This document shows positions 45,126 through 53,034 of a stretch of 64,000 nt of DNA, in pieces. The notes beneath the pieces are model-generated. The model had not been told where the DNA came from and did no database searches. It saw only the letters and a list, made by a program, of their open reading frames with translations. Made by a program: the position numbers and the translations under genes. Positions within the stretch are counted from its first letter, which is position 1; every line of letters starts with the position of its first letter. Source of the DNA: Alphaproteobacteria bacterium HGW-Alphaproteobacteria-7 (lineage in GTDB: Bacteria; Pseudomonadota; Alphaproteobacteria; Sphingomonadales; Sphingomonadaceae); contig PHEB01000001.1 of the NCBI GenBank assembly GCA_002842735.1, positions 62,001 through 126,000 on the forward strand. Reading direction: 5' to 3'.

Positions 45126-45150
45126 CCGGAATGGTCTGAAAGTGCTCTAA
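45126..45150. repeat. 25-bp dispersed repeat spanning a stop codon, copy 1
   Basis: This block matches 48751-48775 at 20 of 25 positions. In both places it covers the TAG stop of a minus-strand gene (here the LuxR-type regulator, there the TauE-family gene) and the bases beyond it. It may be a small terminator or repeat element. Confidence 0.45.
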
Positions 45151-45641
45151 TCCGGGAGCGCGACCAATTCATCTAGGAACAGCGCTATAAGCCCCGATTG
45201 GGATTCGACTCCGGCCTTCGCGTAGATCCGGGCCAGCTGGGCGCGGACTGTGCCAGAGGCCGATCCACGCAAGCCCGCAATTTCGCCCACATCGCATCCT
45301 TTAAGCGCAAACAGGGCGACATCGGCCTCAGCAGGCGTGAGTCGCCACTCTTTAAATCGCAGCCTGATCAGATCGCCCAAGGCCCCGCTGGCCGCGGCCA
45401 CCGCAGTTTCATCGCGGCGCGCTGCTGCAATGAGATCGCGGACCTGAATAGCACCCAGCACGACTGCGATGAGCAGGGCAATAGCCGCCAACCCTTCGAT
45501 CAGCAGATGGGTGCCGCCGCCTTCCGAAGACACGTCGCCAGCGAGGTCGACGAGGAAGAACGTCGCAGCCAGCGCCTGCAAGGAAACAAGGATGGTCATC
45601 CCCATGGCTTTGCGTTCGAGCCTGCATGCACGTCTTTCCAT
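45147..45641 (-). CDS. Membrane-anchored LuxR-type HTH regulator
   Basis: A 164-residue protein with two N-terminal hydrophobic segments (~residues 14-35 and 46-67, 'LIEGLAAIALLIAVVLGAIQV') and a C-terminal LuxR/GerE-like helix-turn-helix, 'LTPAEADVALFALKGCDVGEIAGLRGSASGTVRAQLARIYAKAGV'. There is no receiver or ligand-binding domain, so signal sensing may be through the membrane part. It starts nine bases after the end of the upstream cytochrome b gene on the same strand, so the two are almost certainly co-transcribed; a redox or membrane-state sensor is a fair inference. Confidence 0.78.
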   Translation of the reverse strand: MERRACRLERKAMGMTILVSLQALAATFFLVDLAGDVSSEGGGTHLLIEGLAAIALLIAVVLGAIQVRDLIAAARRDETAVAAASGALGDLIRLRFKEWRLTPAEADVALFALKGCDVGEIAGLRGSASGTVRAQLARIYAKAGVESQSGLIALFLDELVALPD

Positions 45642-46446: not shown

Positions 46447-46469
46447 CCTATTGTCAATCGTTTCAATTG
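46447..46469 (+). promoter_or_regulatory. Conserved operator/promoter block upstream of the RBBP9-like hydrolase
   Basis: A 23-bp block starting CCTATTGTCAAT and ending TTG matches, on the opposite strand, the block upstream of yezD (52339-52361) at 19 of 23 positions. It includes TTGTCA (46451-46456), which with TATGTT 16 bp later forms a plausible sigma-70 promoter. A TTGACA at 46436-46441 forms an inverted repeat with TGTCAA. This is likely a binding site for a shared regulator, perhaps the Rrf2 protein at 52433. Confidence 0.6.
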
Positions 46470-46535
46470 AGTTATGTTCTGGATGTCGGGACGTATACCG
46501 AGTCGACCGGCTTATCCTCAGCTTGGAGCGAGACG

Positions 46536-47207
46536 ATGGCCAAATACGAACGCATCCCCCCTTTTGAACAATCCCAATTACCCCAAGTTCTGCTGGTGCC
46601 CGGCCTCAACAACAGCGGCCCCGATCACTGGCAGTCGCGCTGGGAGGGAGAACTGCCCGATGCCAAGCGGGTTCAGCTTGGTCAATGGGACGATCCGGCC
46701 CGCAACCACTGGGTCAATCAGCTCAACCTTGCGATCCACAAGGTGGGCAGGCCAGTCATATTGGTCGCCCATAGTCTGGGTTGCCACGCTGTTGCCTGGT
46801 GGGCTGAGTTTGAACAAACCGTCCGCAGTTTTCCGGTTGTCGGAGCGCTGTTGGTCGCTCCGCCGGACGTCGAAGCGGCAGAGATCGATCACCGCTTGCG
46901 GCGGTTTGGCCCGGTGATTCAGGCGCGGCTCCCGTTCAACAGCCTTCTCGTGGCCAGTGAGGATGACCCCTATGCCGCGTGGGGCCAATCCAAACGTATG
47001 GCACGCAAATGGGGCAGCCAGCTCATCAACGCTGGGCCATTGGGACATATCAACGCCGATTCAGATATCGGCAGCTGGCCTTATGGCAAATTCCTGCTCC
47101 GCCAGCTGCTGCGGACCGCCGCTCCGGATATCGAGGCTGCATCGCATGACCCCATCACCTTTCACCAGCAACGCTGGGTCGACAGCGTAATGGCCGCGGC
47201 GAGTTGA
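46536..47207 (+). CDS. RBBP9/YdeN family alpha/beta hydrolase
   Basis: A 223-residue serine hydrolase. 'QVLLVPGLNNSGPDHWQSRWE' is the RBBP9/YdeN opening; the nucleophile is S80 in 'VILVAHSLGCHAVAWW'. The acid lies in 'SEDDPYAAWGQ' and the His in 'GPLGHINADS'. Substrates of this family are generally unknown, some being serine-hydrolase probes only. The start at 46536 has a GGAGCGAG ribosome-binding site. Its promoter region shares a 23-bp block with yezD, tying it to the rrf2-yezD-TonB receptor cluster. A long hairpin follows the gene. Confidence 0.85.
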   Translation: MAKYERIPPFEQSQLPQVLLVPGLNNSGPDHWQSRWEGELPDAKRVQLGQWDDPARNHWVNQLNLAIHKVGRPVILVAHSLGCHAVAWWAEFEQTVRSFPVVGALLVAPPDVEAAEIDHRLRRFGPVIQARLPFNSLLVASEDDPYAAWGQSKRMARKWGSQLINAGPLGHINADSDIGSWPYGKFLLRQLLRTAAPDIEAASHDPITFHQQRWVDSVMAAAS

Positions 47208-47230
47208 CGATCACCAACAACGCCAGCGCC

Positions 47231-47260
47231 GCCGGGGCAGGAGCGCCATCCTGCCCCGGC
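47231..47260 (+). terminator. Strong hairpin after the RBBP9-like hydrolase
   Basis: A perfect 12-bp stem, GCCGGGGCAGGA (47231-47242) with TCCTGCCCCGGC (47249-47260), encloses GCGCCA. It lies 23 bp past the stop. There is no T-run, so it may terminate weakly or protect the 3' end of the transcript. Confidence 0.6.
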
Positions 47261-47422
47261 CAATGCGTTTGATCCGCCTGTTCATCAACGCCGCTTGAAC
47301 GGCGCATTCCTTTTGACTATCCAATCGTCACGGGGCCAAGCAACCCCCCGTCCAGGCTACAACCAGCCCAAGTGTTGCCTCGTCCCCTTGCTCTGGCAGC
47401 AGGGCTTTTTTGCGAGGTAAGT

Positions 47423-48742
47423 ATGGCTGTGACTGGCATGATCCCACCCGTTGCGTTTTCCGATCTTGTGCGGGTGTTCGCCCGCATCGGCTTCCTCAGC
47501 TTTGGCGGGCCTGCCGGGCAGATCGCGCTGATGCACCGCGAATTGGTGGACGAACGCAAATGGATCGCTGAAGAAGATTTCCTCCACGCGCTCAATTTCT
47601 GCCACCTGCTCCCCGGCCCTGAAGCGCAGCAACTGGCGACTTGGACTGGCTGGCGGCTGCATGGCTGGCGCGGGGGCCTTGCGGGGGGATTGCTGTTCGT
47701 CATCCCCGGCGCGGTGATCATTCTGGCTTTGTCGATGCTTTATGCAGTCGCCGCCAATCTGGCTTGGGTCGAGGCGCTGTTTCTCGGCGTCAAGGCGGCC
47801 GTGCTGGCGATTGTGGTGCAGGCCTTGTTGCGCATCGCCGGCCGGGCGCTCGACACCGGGCTGAAACGCGCGCTGGCGGTTGCGGCATTTGTGGGGCTGT
47901 TTCTGCTCGATCTGCCATTCCCGCTGATCGTGCTGGGCGCAGGCGTGATCGGCATTGCGGTGGCAGCGGTTCGGCCCGACCTGCTGGCGCTCAAGCCTTC
48001 GAACAGCGATGCCGCAGTGACGGCGCGGCCGTGGCGCAGCACGTTCTTGTCGATTGCCCTGTGGGGCACGGTATGGGTCGCGCCGATGGTGGCGATTGCG
48101 CTGACATTGGGGCGCGATCATGTGCTGTGGGAAATCGGCGCGTTCTTCTCGCAGCTGGCGATTGTCACCTTTGGCGGGGCCTACGCGGTGCTCGCCTATA
48201 TGGCGCAGGAAGCCGTGCAGGGGTTCGGCTGGCTGCGTCCGGGCGAAATGGCCGATGGACTGGGCCTTGCCGAAACGACCCCCGGCCCGCTGATCCTGGT
48301 TACCCAATTTGTCGGCTACCTCGCGGCCTTCCGCGCGCCTGAGCCGTTTTCACCGATGGTCGCCGGACTGATCGGTGCGGCATTGACGACGTGGGTAACC
48401 TTTGCGCCGTGCTTCCTGTGGATTTTCGCCTTCGCGCCGTGGATTGACCGGCTGGGCAATGCTGTGCGGCTGAAAGGCGGGCTGGCGGCGGTGACGGCGG
48501 CTGTGGTGGGCGTGATCGCCAATCTCACCGCATGGTTCGCGCTTCACGTGCTGTTCGCCGCAGTGGGTGAGCAGCGGTTCGGCGCGCTGCGGCTCTACTG
48601 GCCCCACCTTGCCAGTTTCGATTGGCGCGCAGGCGTGCTGGCTTTGGTCGCCTGCCTGCTGGCATTCCGGTTCGGGTGGTCAGTGCTGCGCATTCTCGCC
48701 GTGTGTGCCGCAGGCGGCCTCGCCCTGAGCGTGCAATTCTAA
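47423..48742 (+). CDS. chrA: Chromate efflux transporter, two-domain CHR protein
   Basis: A 439-residue inner-membrane transporter with two homologous CHR halves. Half 1 shows 'FARIGFLSFGGPAGQIALMHRELVDERKWIAEEDFLHALNFCHLLPGPEAQQLATW'; half 2 shows 'FSQLAIVTFGGAYAVLAYMAQEAVQ' and 'MADGLGLAETTPGPLILVTQFVGYLA'. Family members export chromate and may also handle sulfate analogues. The start at 47423 follows GCGAGGTAAG. It lies between the hydrolase and the convergent TauE-family gene; the latter also relates to sulfur anions, which is suggestive but not proof of linkage. Confidence 0.93.
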   Translation: MAVTGMIPPVAFSDLVRVFARIGFLSFGGPAGQIALMHRELVDERKWIAEEDFLHALNFCHLLPGPEAQQLATWTGWRLHGWRGGLAGGLLFVIPGAVIILALSMLYAVAANLAWVEALFLGVKAAVLAIVVQALLRIAGRALDTGLKRALAVAAFVGLFLLDLPFPLIVLGAGVIGIAVAAVRPDLLALKPSNSDAAVTARPWRSTFLSIALWGTVWVAPMVAIALTLGRDHVLWEIGAFFSQLAIVTFGGAYAVLAYMAQEAVQGFGWLRPGEMADGLGLAETTPGPLILVTQFVGYLAAFRAPEPFSPMVAGLIGAALTTWVTFAPCFLWIFAFAPWIDRLGNAVRLKGGLAAVTAAVVGVIANLTAWFALHVLFAAVGEQRFGALRLYWPHLASFDWRAGVLALVACLLAFRFGWSVLRILAVCAAGGLALSVQF

Positions 48743-48750
48743 AGCACTTG

Positions 48751-48775
48751 CCGGAACGGTCGGAAAGCGATCTAG
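48751..48775. repeat. 25-bp dispersed repeat spanning a stop codon, copy 2
   Basis: Matches 45126-45150 at 20 of 25 positions and, like it, runs over the TAG stop of a minus-strand gene (the TauE-family gene ends at 48772). It sits in the 29-bp gap between chrA and that gene. Confidence 0.45.
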
Positions 48776-49545
48776 CCGAGCAGCCATGCCCTGTAGATGC
48801 TGTAACCGCTGGTCACGATCAGCACCACGGCGACCGCAATCAGCAAGGCGCGCGGCTGCACGCGGCTGGCAAGGATCGCTCCGAACGGCGCGGCGATCAC
48901 CCCGCCGATGATCAGCCCGACGGTTATCAGCGTGAAGGCAGCAAAGCCGAGTGACGCGATAAATGCGATCGAGATCGCCAGCGTGAGCAGGAATTCGGCC
49001 GAATTAACCGTGCCAATCACCTTGCGTGGATCACCGCCCTGAATCAGCAGGTTGGAGGTGACCACCGGCCCCCACCCTCCGCCGCCTGCTGCGTCGAGAA
49101 ATCCGCCTGCCGCCGCCAGCGGGCGGGTATAACGCGGGTCTTCGAACCGGGGCTTCGACAGGCGTATGGCCCGCCACAGCAAGTAGAACCCGGTGCCGGT
49201 GAGGTAGAGCATCACGAATGGCCGCGCAGCCGCGGCATCAATGCTCGACAGCAGATAAGCCCCGGCGACCCCGCCCAGCACGCCAAACGGCACCAGCCGC
49301 CAGAACAGCCCCCAATCGACATTGCGATGCCAGATATGGCTCGCCCCCGATGCCCCCGTGGTGAACAGTTCGACCAGATGCACGCTAGCCGAAGCGGCGG
49401 CGGGCGGCACGCCGAGCGCGCTCACCAACAGGGTCTGGGTAATCACGCCGAACGCCATGCCCAGCGCCCCATCGATCATCTGCGCGGCCATGCCGATGGC
49501 TATGAACGGCGCGATGGTGATGAGCAGCTCGGTGAAATCAGGCAT
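48772..49545 (-). CDS. TSUP family transporter (TauE/SafE)
   Basis: A 257-residue inner-membrane protein with about eight hydrophobic helices. 'GMAAQMIDGALGMAFGVITQTLLVSALGVPPAAASASVHLVE' is the family's first repeat; 'GGFLDAAGGGGWGPVVTSNLLIQG' and 'VIGTVNSAEFLLTLAISIAF' belong to the second. TauE/SafE proteins move sulfonates, sulfite or related organosulfur anions. It is the last gene of the rrf2-yezD-TonB receptor run, 33 bp downstream of the receptor. An AGAGAGGACC ribosome-binding site precedes the start. Confidence 0.9.
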   Translation of the reverse strand: MPDFTELLITIAPFIAIGMAAQMIDGALGMAFGVITQTLLVSALGVPPAAASASVHLVELFTTGASGASHIWHRNVDWGLFWRLVPFGVLGGVAGAYLLSSIDAAAARPFVMLYLTGTGFYLLWRAIRLSKPRFEDPRYTRPLAAAGGFLDAAGGGGWGPVVTSNLLIQGGDPRKVIGTVNSAEFLLTLAISIAFIASLGFAAFTLITVGLIIGGVIAAPFGAILASRVQPRALLIAVAVVLIVTSGYSIYRAWLLG

Positions 49546-49578
49546 GAGGTGGTCCTCTCTGTGAAGCGAACGGAACGA

Positions 49579-52017
49579 TCAGAAACGCGTGCTGATCGTT
49601 CCGCCCCAAGTGCGCGGATCGCCCGGCAGCCCTGCGATCAGACCGGTCTGGCCAGGCCCGACAAACAATTGCTGGAAGAAGTTCTTGTCGAATGCATTTC
49701 TGACCCAACCAAAGATGTTGAGCCCGGAATCGGTGCGGAAGCCAAAGCGGAAATTGGATAGGTGGTACCCTTCGATCCGCGTTGCCTCGGACGGTGAGGC
49801 ATTGGAGAAAAAGTCTGACCGGGTGCTGCCATCATAGCCAAGGTAGACCTCACCATCGCGGTCAAGCAGGCGCACCGGGACATTGCCCTCGGCTCCGAAT
49901 GAGAAAGCCACCTTGGACACGCCCGGCAGGCGCTGGCCGGAAATGTCGCAATTGGCCGGGCTGATCCCGCCCGGCGTGCCGGGGGCGGATGGGGTCTGGC
50001 CCGGCGCGGCAGTGGTGCCGCCGCGCAATTCGACCGGGCATGGCGCATCGACGAAGCGGATATATTTCGCATCGGTGTAAGCACCGCTGATGTAAGCGTT
50101 GAACCGTTCGCTGGGCCTGATGGTGAAATCTGCCTCAAGCCCCTGCGAACGGACTTTGTCGGCATTGGCCAGGAAGCCGCGCAGCACGCCGAACTGGCCG
50201 TTGGTCACGGTCGCCTGAAAATCGCTAATGTCGGTGCGGAATGCCGCGAGATTGAGCGTGGCCCGACGATCCCAGAACTGCGTTTTCAGCCCCAGTTCGA
50301 AGTGATCGACTTTTTCCGGCAGGATCGATCCCGCTTCTTCGATCGGCACACCATTGGCATCGGTGGGCAGGCCATTTTGGTTGATCCCGATGGTCTTGAA
50401 GCTGCGCGCATAGGTGCCGTAGGCCCGCACATCGGGCGCAAGTTCATAGCTCAGCGTCAGATCATATGTCAGGTTCCAGTCGGTATCTTTGGGCCCGCTG
50501 AGTTGCGGGGTAAACACCGCCAACTGCGCCCGGCTGCGAGCGTCGGTTTCGGTTCCGAGCAGTTCGGTGCCATCCCCGGTGAACACGCACCGCTGGAAGA
50601 AGCCTTCCTTCTCATCATAATTGAGCCGCGCACCGGGCTGGATCGTGAGAGCGTCGGTCACCTGCCAGCTCAACTGCCCGAACAGTGCAAGGCTGGTGCT
50701 TTCCAGAAATTGCGTGTTGCGCGCAGTGAGCAAGTCAAGCACGGTGGGATCGTTCGATAGCGGGTTGGTCGGGTTTATCGTCCAACGGCTCGATGCGGGG
50801 CCGTGTCCTTCCAGGCCCTGCGTGTCGATCCGCTGGTCGAACGCGAAAGCGCCAAGAACGAAATCGATTTTGTCGCCATCATAAGCGTAGCGGAATTCCT
50901 GCGTGTATTGATCCTGCTGCGACGGGTTCTGCGACAGAGTCACGATCGGCAGGCCCGTAAAGTCACGGTCGTTCTCCGGCTGCCAGTCCCACGTCCGCCA
51001 TGCGGTGATTGATGTGAAGGTGCCCGGCCCCACGTCCCAGTTGATGCGCAAAGCAAGCCCGCCGATCGTGTTGCCCGCGTTGAGGCTGGCATCGAGATCG
51101 CTCAGCCGGTCAAATGGGTTTGTGCTGGGCGGCGCATAATTTTGCGCGGCGGCAAGCGAAGCAAACTGCCGATTGAGCGGGCGCTGGGTAGATACGGTGC
51201 GCACGAATACCGACCCGCAGCAATTGGCATCCTGCTTGTTATAATCCCCCGCCAGCGTCACCCGCAGATTATCATTGGCCTGCCACAGCAACTGGGCGCG
51301 CAGACCGACATTATCGAGGCTCTGGATATCCTGACCGGTCGTCACATTGAATATCGTCCCGGTTCGGTCGGTCGTGGACACCGCAACGCGCGCGGCCAGT
51401 GTATCCGACAGCGGACCGGAAATAGCGGCACGCGCCTGCTTGAAGCTGAAATTGCCGACGCTCACTTCGGCGCTGCCTTCCAGATTGAAGGTTGGCTGTT
51501 TGGTCTTGATGTTGATCGCGCCCGCTGTGGTGTTTTTGCCATAAAGCGTGCCTTGCGGGCCGCGCAGCACCTCAACCTGATCAATATCGACAAAATCGAA
51601 CGTGGCTGAGGCGACGCGGGCGTAATAGACATCGTCGATATAGATGCCGACGCCCTGTTCGAACCCGTCACTGGTAAGCCCGAACGGCACACCAAGCCCG
51701 CGGATATTGACGGCGGTGTTGCGCGGGTTGGATGAAAACAGCTGAAGCGTCGGGGCGAGCTGCTGAACGCGGTCGATATTGAACGCCCCGGTCGATTCGA
51801 TCTGCGGGCCGCCGATGACCGATATGGCGAGCGGGATTTCCTGCGCGGTTTCGGAACGGCGCCGCGCGGTAACGATGATGTCGTTTCCTGATGAGGCCTG
51901 TGCTTCTGTGCCGGCATCATCGGACGCCACCTCGTCCTGCGCGAAGGCCGCAGCAGGAGTAATCGCGGCCAACGCCGCGCCAAGCAGCAGCGTGCTGCGG
52001 AGAGAATTCGGATACAT
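49579..52017 (-). CDS. TonB-dependent receptor in a putative sulfur-linked cluster
   Basis: An 812-residue outer-membrane receptor. A signal peptide (ending 'AITPAAAFAQ') is followed by 'DIIVTARRRSETAQEIPLAISVIGG' (TonB-box-like), the plug 'VNIRGLGVPFGLTSDGFEQGVGIYIDDVYYARV', 'DIDQVEVLRGPQGTLYGKNTTAGAINIKT', and a barrel ending 'WGGTISTRF' with terminal Phe. It lies between yezD and the TauE-family gene on the same strand, so an organosulfur or sulfate-ester ligand is plausible inference. The start at 52017 (MYPNSLRSTLL) gives a compact signal peptide. Confidence 0.9.
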   Translation of the reverse strand: MYPNSLRSTLLLGAALAAITPAAAFAQDEVASDDAGTEAQASSGNDIIVTARRRSETAQEIPLAISVIGGPQIESTGAFNIDRVQQLAPTLQLFSSNPRNTAVNIRGLGVPFGLTSDGFEQGVGIYIDDVYYARVASATFDFVDIDQVEVLRGPQGTLYGKNTTAGAINIKTKQPTFNLEGSAEVSVGNFSFKQARAAISGPLSDTLAARVAVSTTDRTGTIFNVTTGQDIQSLDNVGLRAQLLWQANDNLRVTLAGDYNKQDANCCGSVFVRTVSTQRPLNRQFASLAAAQNYAPPSTNPFDRLSDLDASLNAGNTIGGLALRINWDVGPGTFTSITAWRTWDWQPENDRDFTGLPIVTLSQNPSQQDQYTQEFRYAYDGDKIDFVLGAFAFDQRIDTQGLEGHGPASSRWTINPTNPLSNDPTVLDLLTARNTQFLESTSLALFGQLSWQVTDALTIQPGARLNYDEKEGFFQRCVFTGDGTELLGTETDARSRAQLAVFTPQLSGPKDTDWNLTYDLTLSYELAPDVRAYGTYARSFKTIGINQNGLPTDANGVPIEEAGSILPEKVDHFELGLKTQFWDRRATLNLAAFRTDISDFQATVTNGQFGVLRGFLANADKVRSQGLEADFTIRPSERFNAYISGAYTDAKYIRFVDAPCPVELRGGTTAAPGQTPSAPGTPGGISPANCDISGQRLPGVSKVAFSFGAEGNVPVRLLDRDGEVYLGYDGSTRSDFFSNASPSEATRIEGYHLSNFRFGFRTDSGLNIFGWVRNAFDKNFFQQLFVGPGQTGLIAGLPGDPRTWGGTISTRF

Positions 52018-52120
52018 GGTTTCGCCTTTGCAAGCGGGCATGCATCCGGTGGTCCGGTCTGCGGGTCCCTGTTTGTGTTAAGTTCATGGTGTTGGTGATG
52101 ATCGGCTGCGGCTGGAGCCG

Positions 52121-52291
52121 TCAGTCGTTCAGACGCTTTCTTTCGGTCACGTCGATCTGCATCACCCGGCCGTCATGGACGGTAAGCTGGATTGCGCCAT
52201 AGCGCAGGCGCGACAACGCATCGCTGACCAAGGCCAGCGCCTCGGGCAAAACCCCCTCGCGATCACCGTGTTTCTTGTCATGGTCCATCAT
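52121..52291 (-). CDS. yezD: YezD family small protein (DUF2292)
   Basis: A 56-residue protein, 'MMDHDKKHG…EALALVSDALSRLRYGAIQLTVHDGRVMQIDVTERKRL', with the DUF2292/YezD core 'LRYGAIQLTVHDGRVMQIDVTER'. YezD-type proteins are small, uncharacterised, and in several bacteria sit beside sulfur-assimilation genes. The start at 52291 follows AAGGAAAGG, an excellent ribosome-binding site; a longer in-frame start lacks one. The promoter region carries the 23-bp block shared with the hydrolase at 46536. It is followed by the TonB receptor after a 103-bp gap. Confidence 0.88.
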   Translation of the reverse strand: MMDHDKKHGDREGVLPEALALVSDALSRLRYGAIQLTVHDGRVMQIDVTERKRLND

Positions 52292-52338
52292 CGGGCCTTT
52301 CCTTGCGCGAATTGCGTTTGCAGCGCAGGAATTAAACC

Positions 52339-52361
52339 CAAGTGAATTAATTGACAATAGG
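52339..52361 (-). promoter_or_regulatory. Conserved operator/promoter block upstream of yezD
   Basis: Read on the minus strand, this 23-bp block begins CCTATTGTCAAT and ends CACTTG; it equals the hydrolase block (46447-46469) at 19 of 23 positions. TTGTCA followed after 17 bp by TAATTC gives a plausible promoter 48 bp before the yezD start. The block contains TCAATTAATTCA, close to a perfect palindrome, as expected for a dimeric regulator such as Rrf2. Confidence 0.62.
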
Positions 52362-52432: not shown

Positions 52433-52873
52433 TCAGGTGTCGTCCTGGGAAAAGGGCGCCACCGGCACAATCGGATCAGACAACCGAATGGCGTCAAGGA
52501 TCTGGGCGGTCCGGTCGCGCACATCGAGCAGCAAGGCGCGCGTCCGGCATTCGCCTTCCTCTAGGCAATTCTTGCACTTTTCATGGGCATAACGACTCGC
52601 GCAGGGCACCAGCGCGAGCGATCCGCGCATATGGCGGATCAAATCGCCATAGGTGATGTCCACTGGAGCAATCGCCAACCAATATCCCCCATCACGTCCA
52701 CGGCGCGAAGCAACGAGGCCATAACGGGTAAGTTCGGACAGGATAACGGTCAGGAATTTGGCCGGGATGTTCTGCTTTTCGGCGATGGCGGCGAGCTGAA
52801 TCGGGCCCTCGCCGTAGTGGTCGGCAAGATGTTGCATTGCGCGAATGGCATATCGGGTTTTTTGCGACAGCAT
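52433..52873 (-). CDS. Rrf2 family transcriptional regulator
   Basis: A 146-residue winged-helix regulator. 'MLSQKTRYAIRAMQHLADHYGEGPIQLAAIAEKQNIPAKFLTVILSELTRYGLVASRRGRDGGYWLA' is the Rrf2 DNA-binding domain, with 'RGRDGGYWL' the wing. C-terminal Cys91, Cys100, Cys103 and Cys109 form a four-Cys set, one more than the three Cys of IscR-type cluster ligands; they could bind an Fe-S cluster or another metal, or be redox-active. It heads the yezD-TonB receptor-TauE run. Upstream of its start, CAAGTAGGCAATAAGG (52891-52906) resembles part of the conserved block, suggesting autoregulation. Confidence 0.9.
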   Translation of the reverse strand: MLSQKTRYAIRAMQHLADHYGEGPIQLAAIAEKQNIPAKFLTVILSELTRYGLVASRRGRDGGYWLAIAPVDITYGDLIRHMRGSLALVPCASRYAHEKCKNCLEEGECRTRALLLDVRDRTAQILDAIRLSDPIVPVAPFSQDDT

Positions 52874-53034
52874 GGCCTTTGTCTATCTGCCAAGTAGGCA
52901 ATAAGGTCAAGTCATCCAGCGATCAAACATCGCATATTACGGCCAATGACGAGCAAGGGGTCGCTTCCCGAAGAGCCGTTTTTTGCCGCTTCCGTCAAAA
53001 ACTGCCCTGCCCAGCAGGCGAAGCCACACAGGCG

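Follow-up and report, generated by a model that had tools for sequence, protein, structure and literature searches.

The locus comprises, in this order, the genes for an RBBP9/YdeN-type serine hydrolase, a CHR-family transporter, a TauE/SafE permease, a TonB-dependent receptor, YezD and an Rrf2 regulator (Table 1). Positions refer to the window, i.e., the whole stretch of 64,000 nucleotides that was analysed. The yezD product passed the DUF2292 model and failed the OscA model. Judging by gene order, the TonB-dependent receptor gene and tauE probably share the yezD transcript. A terminator-like hairpin with a T run was detected between the hydrolase gene and chrA (47386-47405), so chrA may be outside the hydrolase transcript, and its membership in a common regulon is uncertain. 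A 164-aa ORF on the minus strand (45147-45641) gave no Pfam match at E 0.001.

Table 1. Genes, possible promoter and candidate operators of the locus.
Feature	Positions	Strand	Basis
Candidate operator 1, over the hydrolase promoter; holds the first 23-bp block from its second base	46448..46476	+	matrix scan, 28.3 (yezD-trained); conserved at hydrolase homologs
Possible hydrolase promoter (TTGTCA, 16 bp, TATGTT)	46451..46478	+	consensus scan only
Serine hydrolase, RBBP9/YdeN type	46536..47207	+	PF06821
CHR-family (chromate) transporter, chrA, 3' of the hydrolase gene	47423..48742	+	TIGR00937
TauE/SafE-type permease, tauE	48772..49545	-	PF01925; gene order
TonB-dependent receptor	49579..52020	-	gene order
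yezD, DUF2292 protein, weak OscA match	52121..52291	-	PF10055, 52.9 bits (cut-off 22); NF033785, 32.9 bits (cut-off 85)
Candidate operator 2, over the yezD promoter; holds the second 23-bp block	52332..52360	-	24.8 (hydrolase-trained matrix); conserved at yezD homologs
Rrf2-family regulator, four cysteines (91, 100, 103, 109); proposed to bind all three operators	52433..52873	-	
Candidate operator 3, rrf2 promoter, stopping two bases short of the start codon; weaker copy	52876..52904	-	14.9 and 21.6 (two gene-specific matrices); genome-wide pattern; rrf2 upstream regions of named loci

A preliminary description of this DNA had pointed to two similar 23-bp blocks, one upstream of the hydrolase gene (46447-46469) and one upstream of yezD (52339-52361, minus strand). 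Their positions and their identity at 19 of 23 bases were confirmed. The pattern proposed for them, searched with up to three mismatches, occurred at two places in the window, which were the two blocks, and nowhere in 100 shuffles. The genome search suggested at that time returned, with the same tolerance, only these two places in 2,659,576 bases, and pattern scans of the own genome did not reveal many unrelated copies. Both blocks had also been described as containing TTGTCA 16-17 bp before a -10-like sequence. For the hydrolase promoter this spacing was found as described (16 bp before TATGTT), whereas for yezD it is only loosely true, because the -10 sequences at 16-17 bp are weak (TTAATT or TAATTC) and a better one (TTTAAT) lies at 15 bp. 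In shuffles of the 6.65-kb region, 1.7 promoter-like matches of the quality of the hydrolase promoter are expected, so the assignment of -35 and -10 is itself not significant there.

Extent and rarity of the candidate operator

The 23-bp match is real, but it had been delimited too narrowly, since the block is only the left-hand portion of a candidate operator that spans 29 bp as an inverted repeat, roughly YTATTGTCWAY-N7-RTWGACAATAR. Between rrf2 and yezD in ten genomes, including the own one, the block extends rightward as an inverted repeat, with the clearest example being CTATTGTCAACCATATCACTTGACAATAG. The general form derived from the sites of relatives consists of two 11-bp arms flanking a 7-bp centre. 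The dyad is clear in relatives and weak (5-6 of 11 arm positions) in the own genome; a possible reason is that the right arm doubles there as the -10 region.

When the whole window was scanned with the matrix, the top three matches, scoring between 15 and 34, were the three candidate operators listed in Table 1, with the next best match reaching at most 8.2. The generalised pattern with up to two mismatches matched four places in the genome, i.e., the same three sites, which all lie at rrf2 or genes near it in a stretch of 6.5 kb, and one unrelated element. The genes between the two blocks had been said to lack the motif. This holds for the chrA, tauE and TonB receptor promoters, but the copy preceding rrf2 had been overlooked. 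It is very improbable that the likeness of the blocks is no more than that of common sigma-70 promoters, with TTGTCA as -35 and an AT-rich -10, and that no operator is involved. TTGTCA can act as -35 in both promoters, and on the right side of the hydrolase sites some of the conserved bases fall on the -10 region, but relatives have an inverted repeat with a constant 7-bp centre, the motif is gene-specific with few copies in the genome, and the rrf2 copy lies directly behind a -35-like TTGACC, in a promoter register differing from that of the hydrolase and yezD sites, which argues against mere promoter resemblance.

The fourth genomic match (G000:C39:175126-175153, outside the window) was set aside, as a near-identical element is present also in genomes lacking the Rrf2 (G041, G121, G002). 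This element, TTAT[TC]GTCAATCAATAATATTGA[AT]AAAC, was found in many genomes of Erythrobacter, whether they have the Rrf2 or not. It lies near a gene reading by eye as an XRE-type regulator (also in L157, L171, L172 and L174) and is probably the operator of a different regulator.

Conservation of the site and its linkage to rrf2

The sites were scored across loci with two gene-specific matrices, one trained on 23 yezD sites with the own genome excluded and the other on 37 hydrolase sites. At a score of at least 15, the yezD-trained matrix detected sites in 32 of the 57 regions upstream of hydrolase genes relative to 10 of 1135 control windows, and the hydrolase-trained matrix in 24 of 27 yezD regions relative to 13 of 1135; the training sites of both had been chosen with a full matrix, and training and test genomes have species in common. 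The full matrix, trained and scored on the same set, left eight of the 57 hydrolase upstream regions below the shuffled 95% level. Several of the matches in control windows sit before sulfate-binding-protein or serine-acetyltransferase genes, which means that the controls hold some real sites and overstate the background. The proposal of an operator overlapping the promoter is supported by this conservation of the site at the same genes in other genera.

Sites were also detected around rrf2 itself. Among the 76 named Rrf2 loci, 74 were scored (one was too short and one had an identical promoter). At a score of at least 12, the hydrolase-trained matrix found a site upstream of rrf2 in 43 loci versus 1 of 1525 control windows and downstream of it in 56 versus 4 of 1525 controls; the remaining 31 rrf2 promoters scored below 12. 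The upstream sites were mostly placed at few set distances from the start codon, ending near -3, -25, -58 or +4. In the family set, 9 of 72 rrf2 upstream regions scored at least 15 with the yezD-trained matrix and 17 of 72 with the hydrolase-trained one. Such sites before rrf2 strengthen the case for the adjacent Rrf2, named as the candidate factor in the preliminary description, and, at the level of sequence, an operator in its own promoter (52876-52904 here) points to autoregulation.

In the host genus, 61 genomes were examined. The Rrf2 was present in 17 and the hydrolase in 12, all of them among the 17 (Fisher 3.6e-9, a value which takes no account of kinship; as the genomes share ancestry, the counts cannot be treated as independent). 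A site scoring at least 22 with the yezD-trained matrix is present at each of the 13 hydrolase genes in the genus set. The yezD gene was found in 7 of 37 genus genomes searched, and all seven have the Rrf2, as do three others. The generalised pattern with up to two mismatches gave a site within 600 bp of rrf2 in 14 of the 17 Rrf2-positive genomes. A further ten sites in these genomes, counted with the own genome and the unrelated element excluded, were located away from rrf2, seven of them before the hydrolase gene, one before a second yezD and two before other genes. Around five sites fetched from Rrf2-negative genus genomes (besides the unrelated element), neither the hydrolase nor yezD was found nearby.

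In the family, a first scan of 199 genomes with a shortened pattern and up to two mismatches gave 23 places, reduced to 20 after the removal of two own sites and a palindrome duplicate. Three of these lay between the rrf2 and yezD genes, two before hydrolase homologs (47% and 60% identity) and one before a TonB receptor, while 14 had no link to yezD, the hydrolase or a TonB receptor. A close Rrf2 was present in 66 of the 199 genomes, the hydrolase in 67 and both in 44. Among the 23 hydrolase genomes without a close Rrf2, 16 contained only a 42-50% relative and seven had none at E 1e-25. A clean switch of the motif with the Rrf2 clade, looked for by eye, was dropped; CCTAY/RTAGG variants exist, but a close-clade type of site is present in G057, where the only Rrf2 relatives are 42-50% identical.

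This site in G057 and another good one in G143, where no Rrf2 was found (assembly of 320 contigs, 90% complete), would fit an operator belonging to another regulator, e.g., a LysR-type CysB relative or another Rrf2, with rrf2 being just one more target. Such an explanation is, nevertheless, quite unlikely in view of the confinement of the genus hydrolase to Rrf2 genomes and of the way in which sites track rrf2 genes. In 50 chosen family genomes, the generalised pattern with one mismatch gave a site in 18 of 26 with a close Rrf2 and in only 4 of 22 without it, three of the four being the unrelated element; of the two genomes with the hydrolase but without an Rrf2 match (G143, G061), one had a site. 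Moreover, rrf2 and the hydrolase gene are directly adjacent in eight family genomes (G021, G035, G075, G088, G101, G163, G177 and G189). The adjacent Rrf2 is favoured by these relations as the factor acting on the shared sites.

Putative targets in relatives and the nature of the signal

The named Rrf2 relatives, 84-99% identical, come mostly from Erythrobacter and Porphyrobacter, with some MAGs otherwise labelled. Among the 76 named loci, tauE was present in 61, a TonB receptor (at least 45% identity) in 46, yezD in 45 and chrA (at least 45%) in 24. In other genera, sbp was preceded by a site in 7 of the 13 upstream regions scored (one site accounts for two of the rows), the EpsC-type serine acetyltransferase gene in 3 of 3 and a glutamine amidotransferase gene in 2 of 9; three short rows, one of cysK and two of the amidotransferase, were left out of the counts, and since many loci were fetched because they bear the motif, the sbp and epsC proportions lean upward. 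Sites also preceded further TonB receptor genes. No site was found in the two tauE upstream regions. For chrA, two of four regions matched, but these are common to divergent hydrolase genes. In one genome (L199:285-1634), a site was noticed before the gene of a sodium:dicarboxylate-family symporter, for which a role as a cystine transporter is possible.

The hydrolase gene is directly followed by cysK, as an operon, in six genomes (L067, L069, L071, L105, L153 and L194), which hints at a role of the hydrolase in cysteine/sulfur metabolism. The cysK upstream regions had no site of their own (0 of 6). The small regulon envisaged in the preliminary description is supported by the comparison of genomes, but the putative set is larger, including rrf2 here and sbp, serine acetyltransferase and TonB receptor genes in relatives. 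An Sbp query against the own genome gave an empty result, which, without a positive control there, shows little. The own regulon may be narrower than that of relatives, and the uptake route may consist of the TonB receptor and TauE.

More distant Rrf2 relatives (about 41-50% identity) were inspected at 25 loci, 24 of them outside the family. In seven, all from other Alphaproteobacteria (L351, L354, L362, L364, L365, L366 and L371), sbp was present within the 1.5-kb flanks, and the sulfur role may therefore be class-wide. A search for dyads upstream of rrf2 in 25 distant alphaproteobacterial or paralog loci performed no better than in shuffles; besides the sbp adjacency, some matrix scores in distant loci remain as leads.

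The nature of the targets bears also on the signal. The Rrf2 could be the right regulator and sense chromate, oxidative or Fe-S stress instead of the sulfur supply, with sulfur genes merely following. Four invariant cysteines in the protein (135 of 135 sequences), chrA beside the cluster here and in the 24 named loci mentioned above, and the reported tie of OscA to chromate resistance (PMC2996968) would all agree with such a sensor. The targets in other genera are, however, genes of sulfate import and cysteine synthesis, and the Rrf2 gene of distant relatives has sbp beside it in 7 of 25 loci, which makes a signal other than sulfur supply unlikely.

The Rrf2 protein, the proposed regulation and known systems

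The protein belongs to the Rrf2 superfamily (PF02082, 113.2 bits versus 30; TIGR00738, 103 versus a cut-off of 73.3). It remained below the cut-offs of the CymR equivalog NF047409 (72 bits versus 195; 54.6 bits for the G088 relative) and the IscR equivalog TIGR02010 (77.7 versus 207.55), and is placed under neither. Scores against the RirA and NsrR models were 46 bits (cut-off 193) and 39.6 bits (cut-off 182), respectively. The nearest solved relatives by sequence are the Rrf2 regulators 4cic and CymR 2y75. Cysteines 91, 100, 103 and 109, with the spacing x8-x2-x5, are invariant in all aligned close-clade sequences, and an Fe-S cluster, a metal site or thiol chemistry is likely. The protein would carry a sensor built on the four cysteines. 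Near other hydrolase copies (L086, L130, L139), a second paralog (about 46%) of the Rrf2 was noticed, in which the four-Cys pattern recurs.

What can be read directly from the genomes is that the three sites exist and are conserved, that they co-occur with rrf2 and are linked to it, and that such sites precede sulfur genes in relatives. On this basis, the shared block is most probably the operator of the adjacent Rrf2, which would act as a repressor rather than an activator and be released on sulfur or cysteine shortage. A dimer of Rrf2 would bind the 29-bp inverted repeat covering the promoter region of each of the three genes and, when bound, repress the hydrolase gene, yezD with the TonB receptor and tauE genes behind it, and rrf2 itself. 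The position of the sites suggests that repression would consist in blocking RNA polymerase. When sulfur or cysteine is short, Rrf2 would leave the DNA, and the genes for alternative sulfur acquisition, as the targets appear to be, would be expressed. The best reading is an Rrf2 repressor with four cysteines that controls its own gene and sulfur acquisition in Erythrobacter and may be called CymR-like by its putative target list.

A wider proposal is plausible, though tentative. Sphingomonadaceae and, in a diverged form, other Alphaproteobacteria might use an undescribed four-Cys Rrf2 repressor as the master switch of sulfur acquisition, a proteobacterial counterpart of CymR sensing sulfur via a metal site or an Fe-S cluster. 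The core of the regulon would include the orphan DUF2292 protein and the RBBP9-like hydrolase, the latter working with cysteine synthase to free or salvage sulfur. A literature search, with subscription papers mostly outside its reach, found no description of this Rrf2 regulator or motif. In model Proteobacteria, the textbook control of sulfur metabolism is exerted by the LysR-type CysB, and a switch based on Rrf2 would mean that the CymR strategy has evolved or been retained in a second lineage. For a large group of environmental Alphaproteobacteria, the analysis provides candidates for the regulator, the operator and the targets involved in sulfur limitation. The genes of DUF2292/YezD, the RBBP9-like hydrolase and a TonB receptor, all three poorly understood, would be linked to one function. 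The operator could be used for reading sulfur regulons from genomes.

Among known systems, IscR, RirA and NsrR share with the protein described here the membership in the Rrf2 family and a cysteine-rich loop. They differ in that the scores obtained here are below their cut-offs, that the cysteines number four in the x8-x2-x5 arrangement and that the putative targets are sulfur genes. IscR has three ligand cysteines. The same number is reported for RirA and NsrR. The NsrR site of hmpA1 is reported to have a 7-bp operator centre (PMC9338935), as do the sites described here.

The oscA-sbp sulfur-starvation unit of Pseudomonas resembles the present locus in tying a DUF2292-type small protein to sulfur import and in its chromate link (PMC2996968). 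OscA, of a family related to YezD, is linked in Pseudomonas to sulfur starvation and the chromate response (PMC2996968, PMC10433965, PMC12892942). The present unit differs in that yezD is below the OscA cut-off, its partners are the TonB receptor and tauE genes, and the proposed regulator is an Rrf2 protein.

CymR, the cysteine regulator of Bacillus subtilis and Staphylococcus aureus, has the same Rrf2 fold by sequence (PDB 2y75, 61.2 bits) and a regulon of genes for sulfur/cysteine uptake and synthesis, as is proposed here. A link with CysK may be common to both systems. Here, the hydrolase-cysK operon of six relatives hints at such a partnership, while in Bacillus CymR is reported to act together with CysK in a protein complex (PMC2869319, PMC9338935). 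Unlike CymR, the Rrf2 described here is below the 195-bit cut-off, has four invariant cysteines, occurs in other taxa and has yezD, tauE and the genes of the RBBP9-like hydrolase and a TonB receptor among its putative targets.
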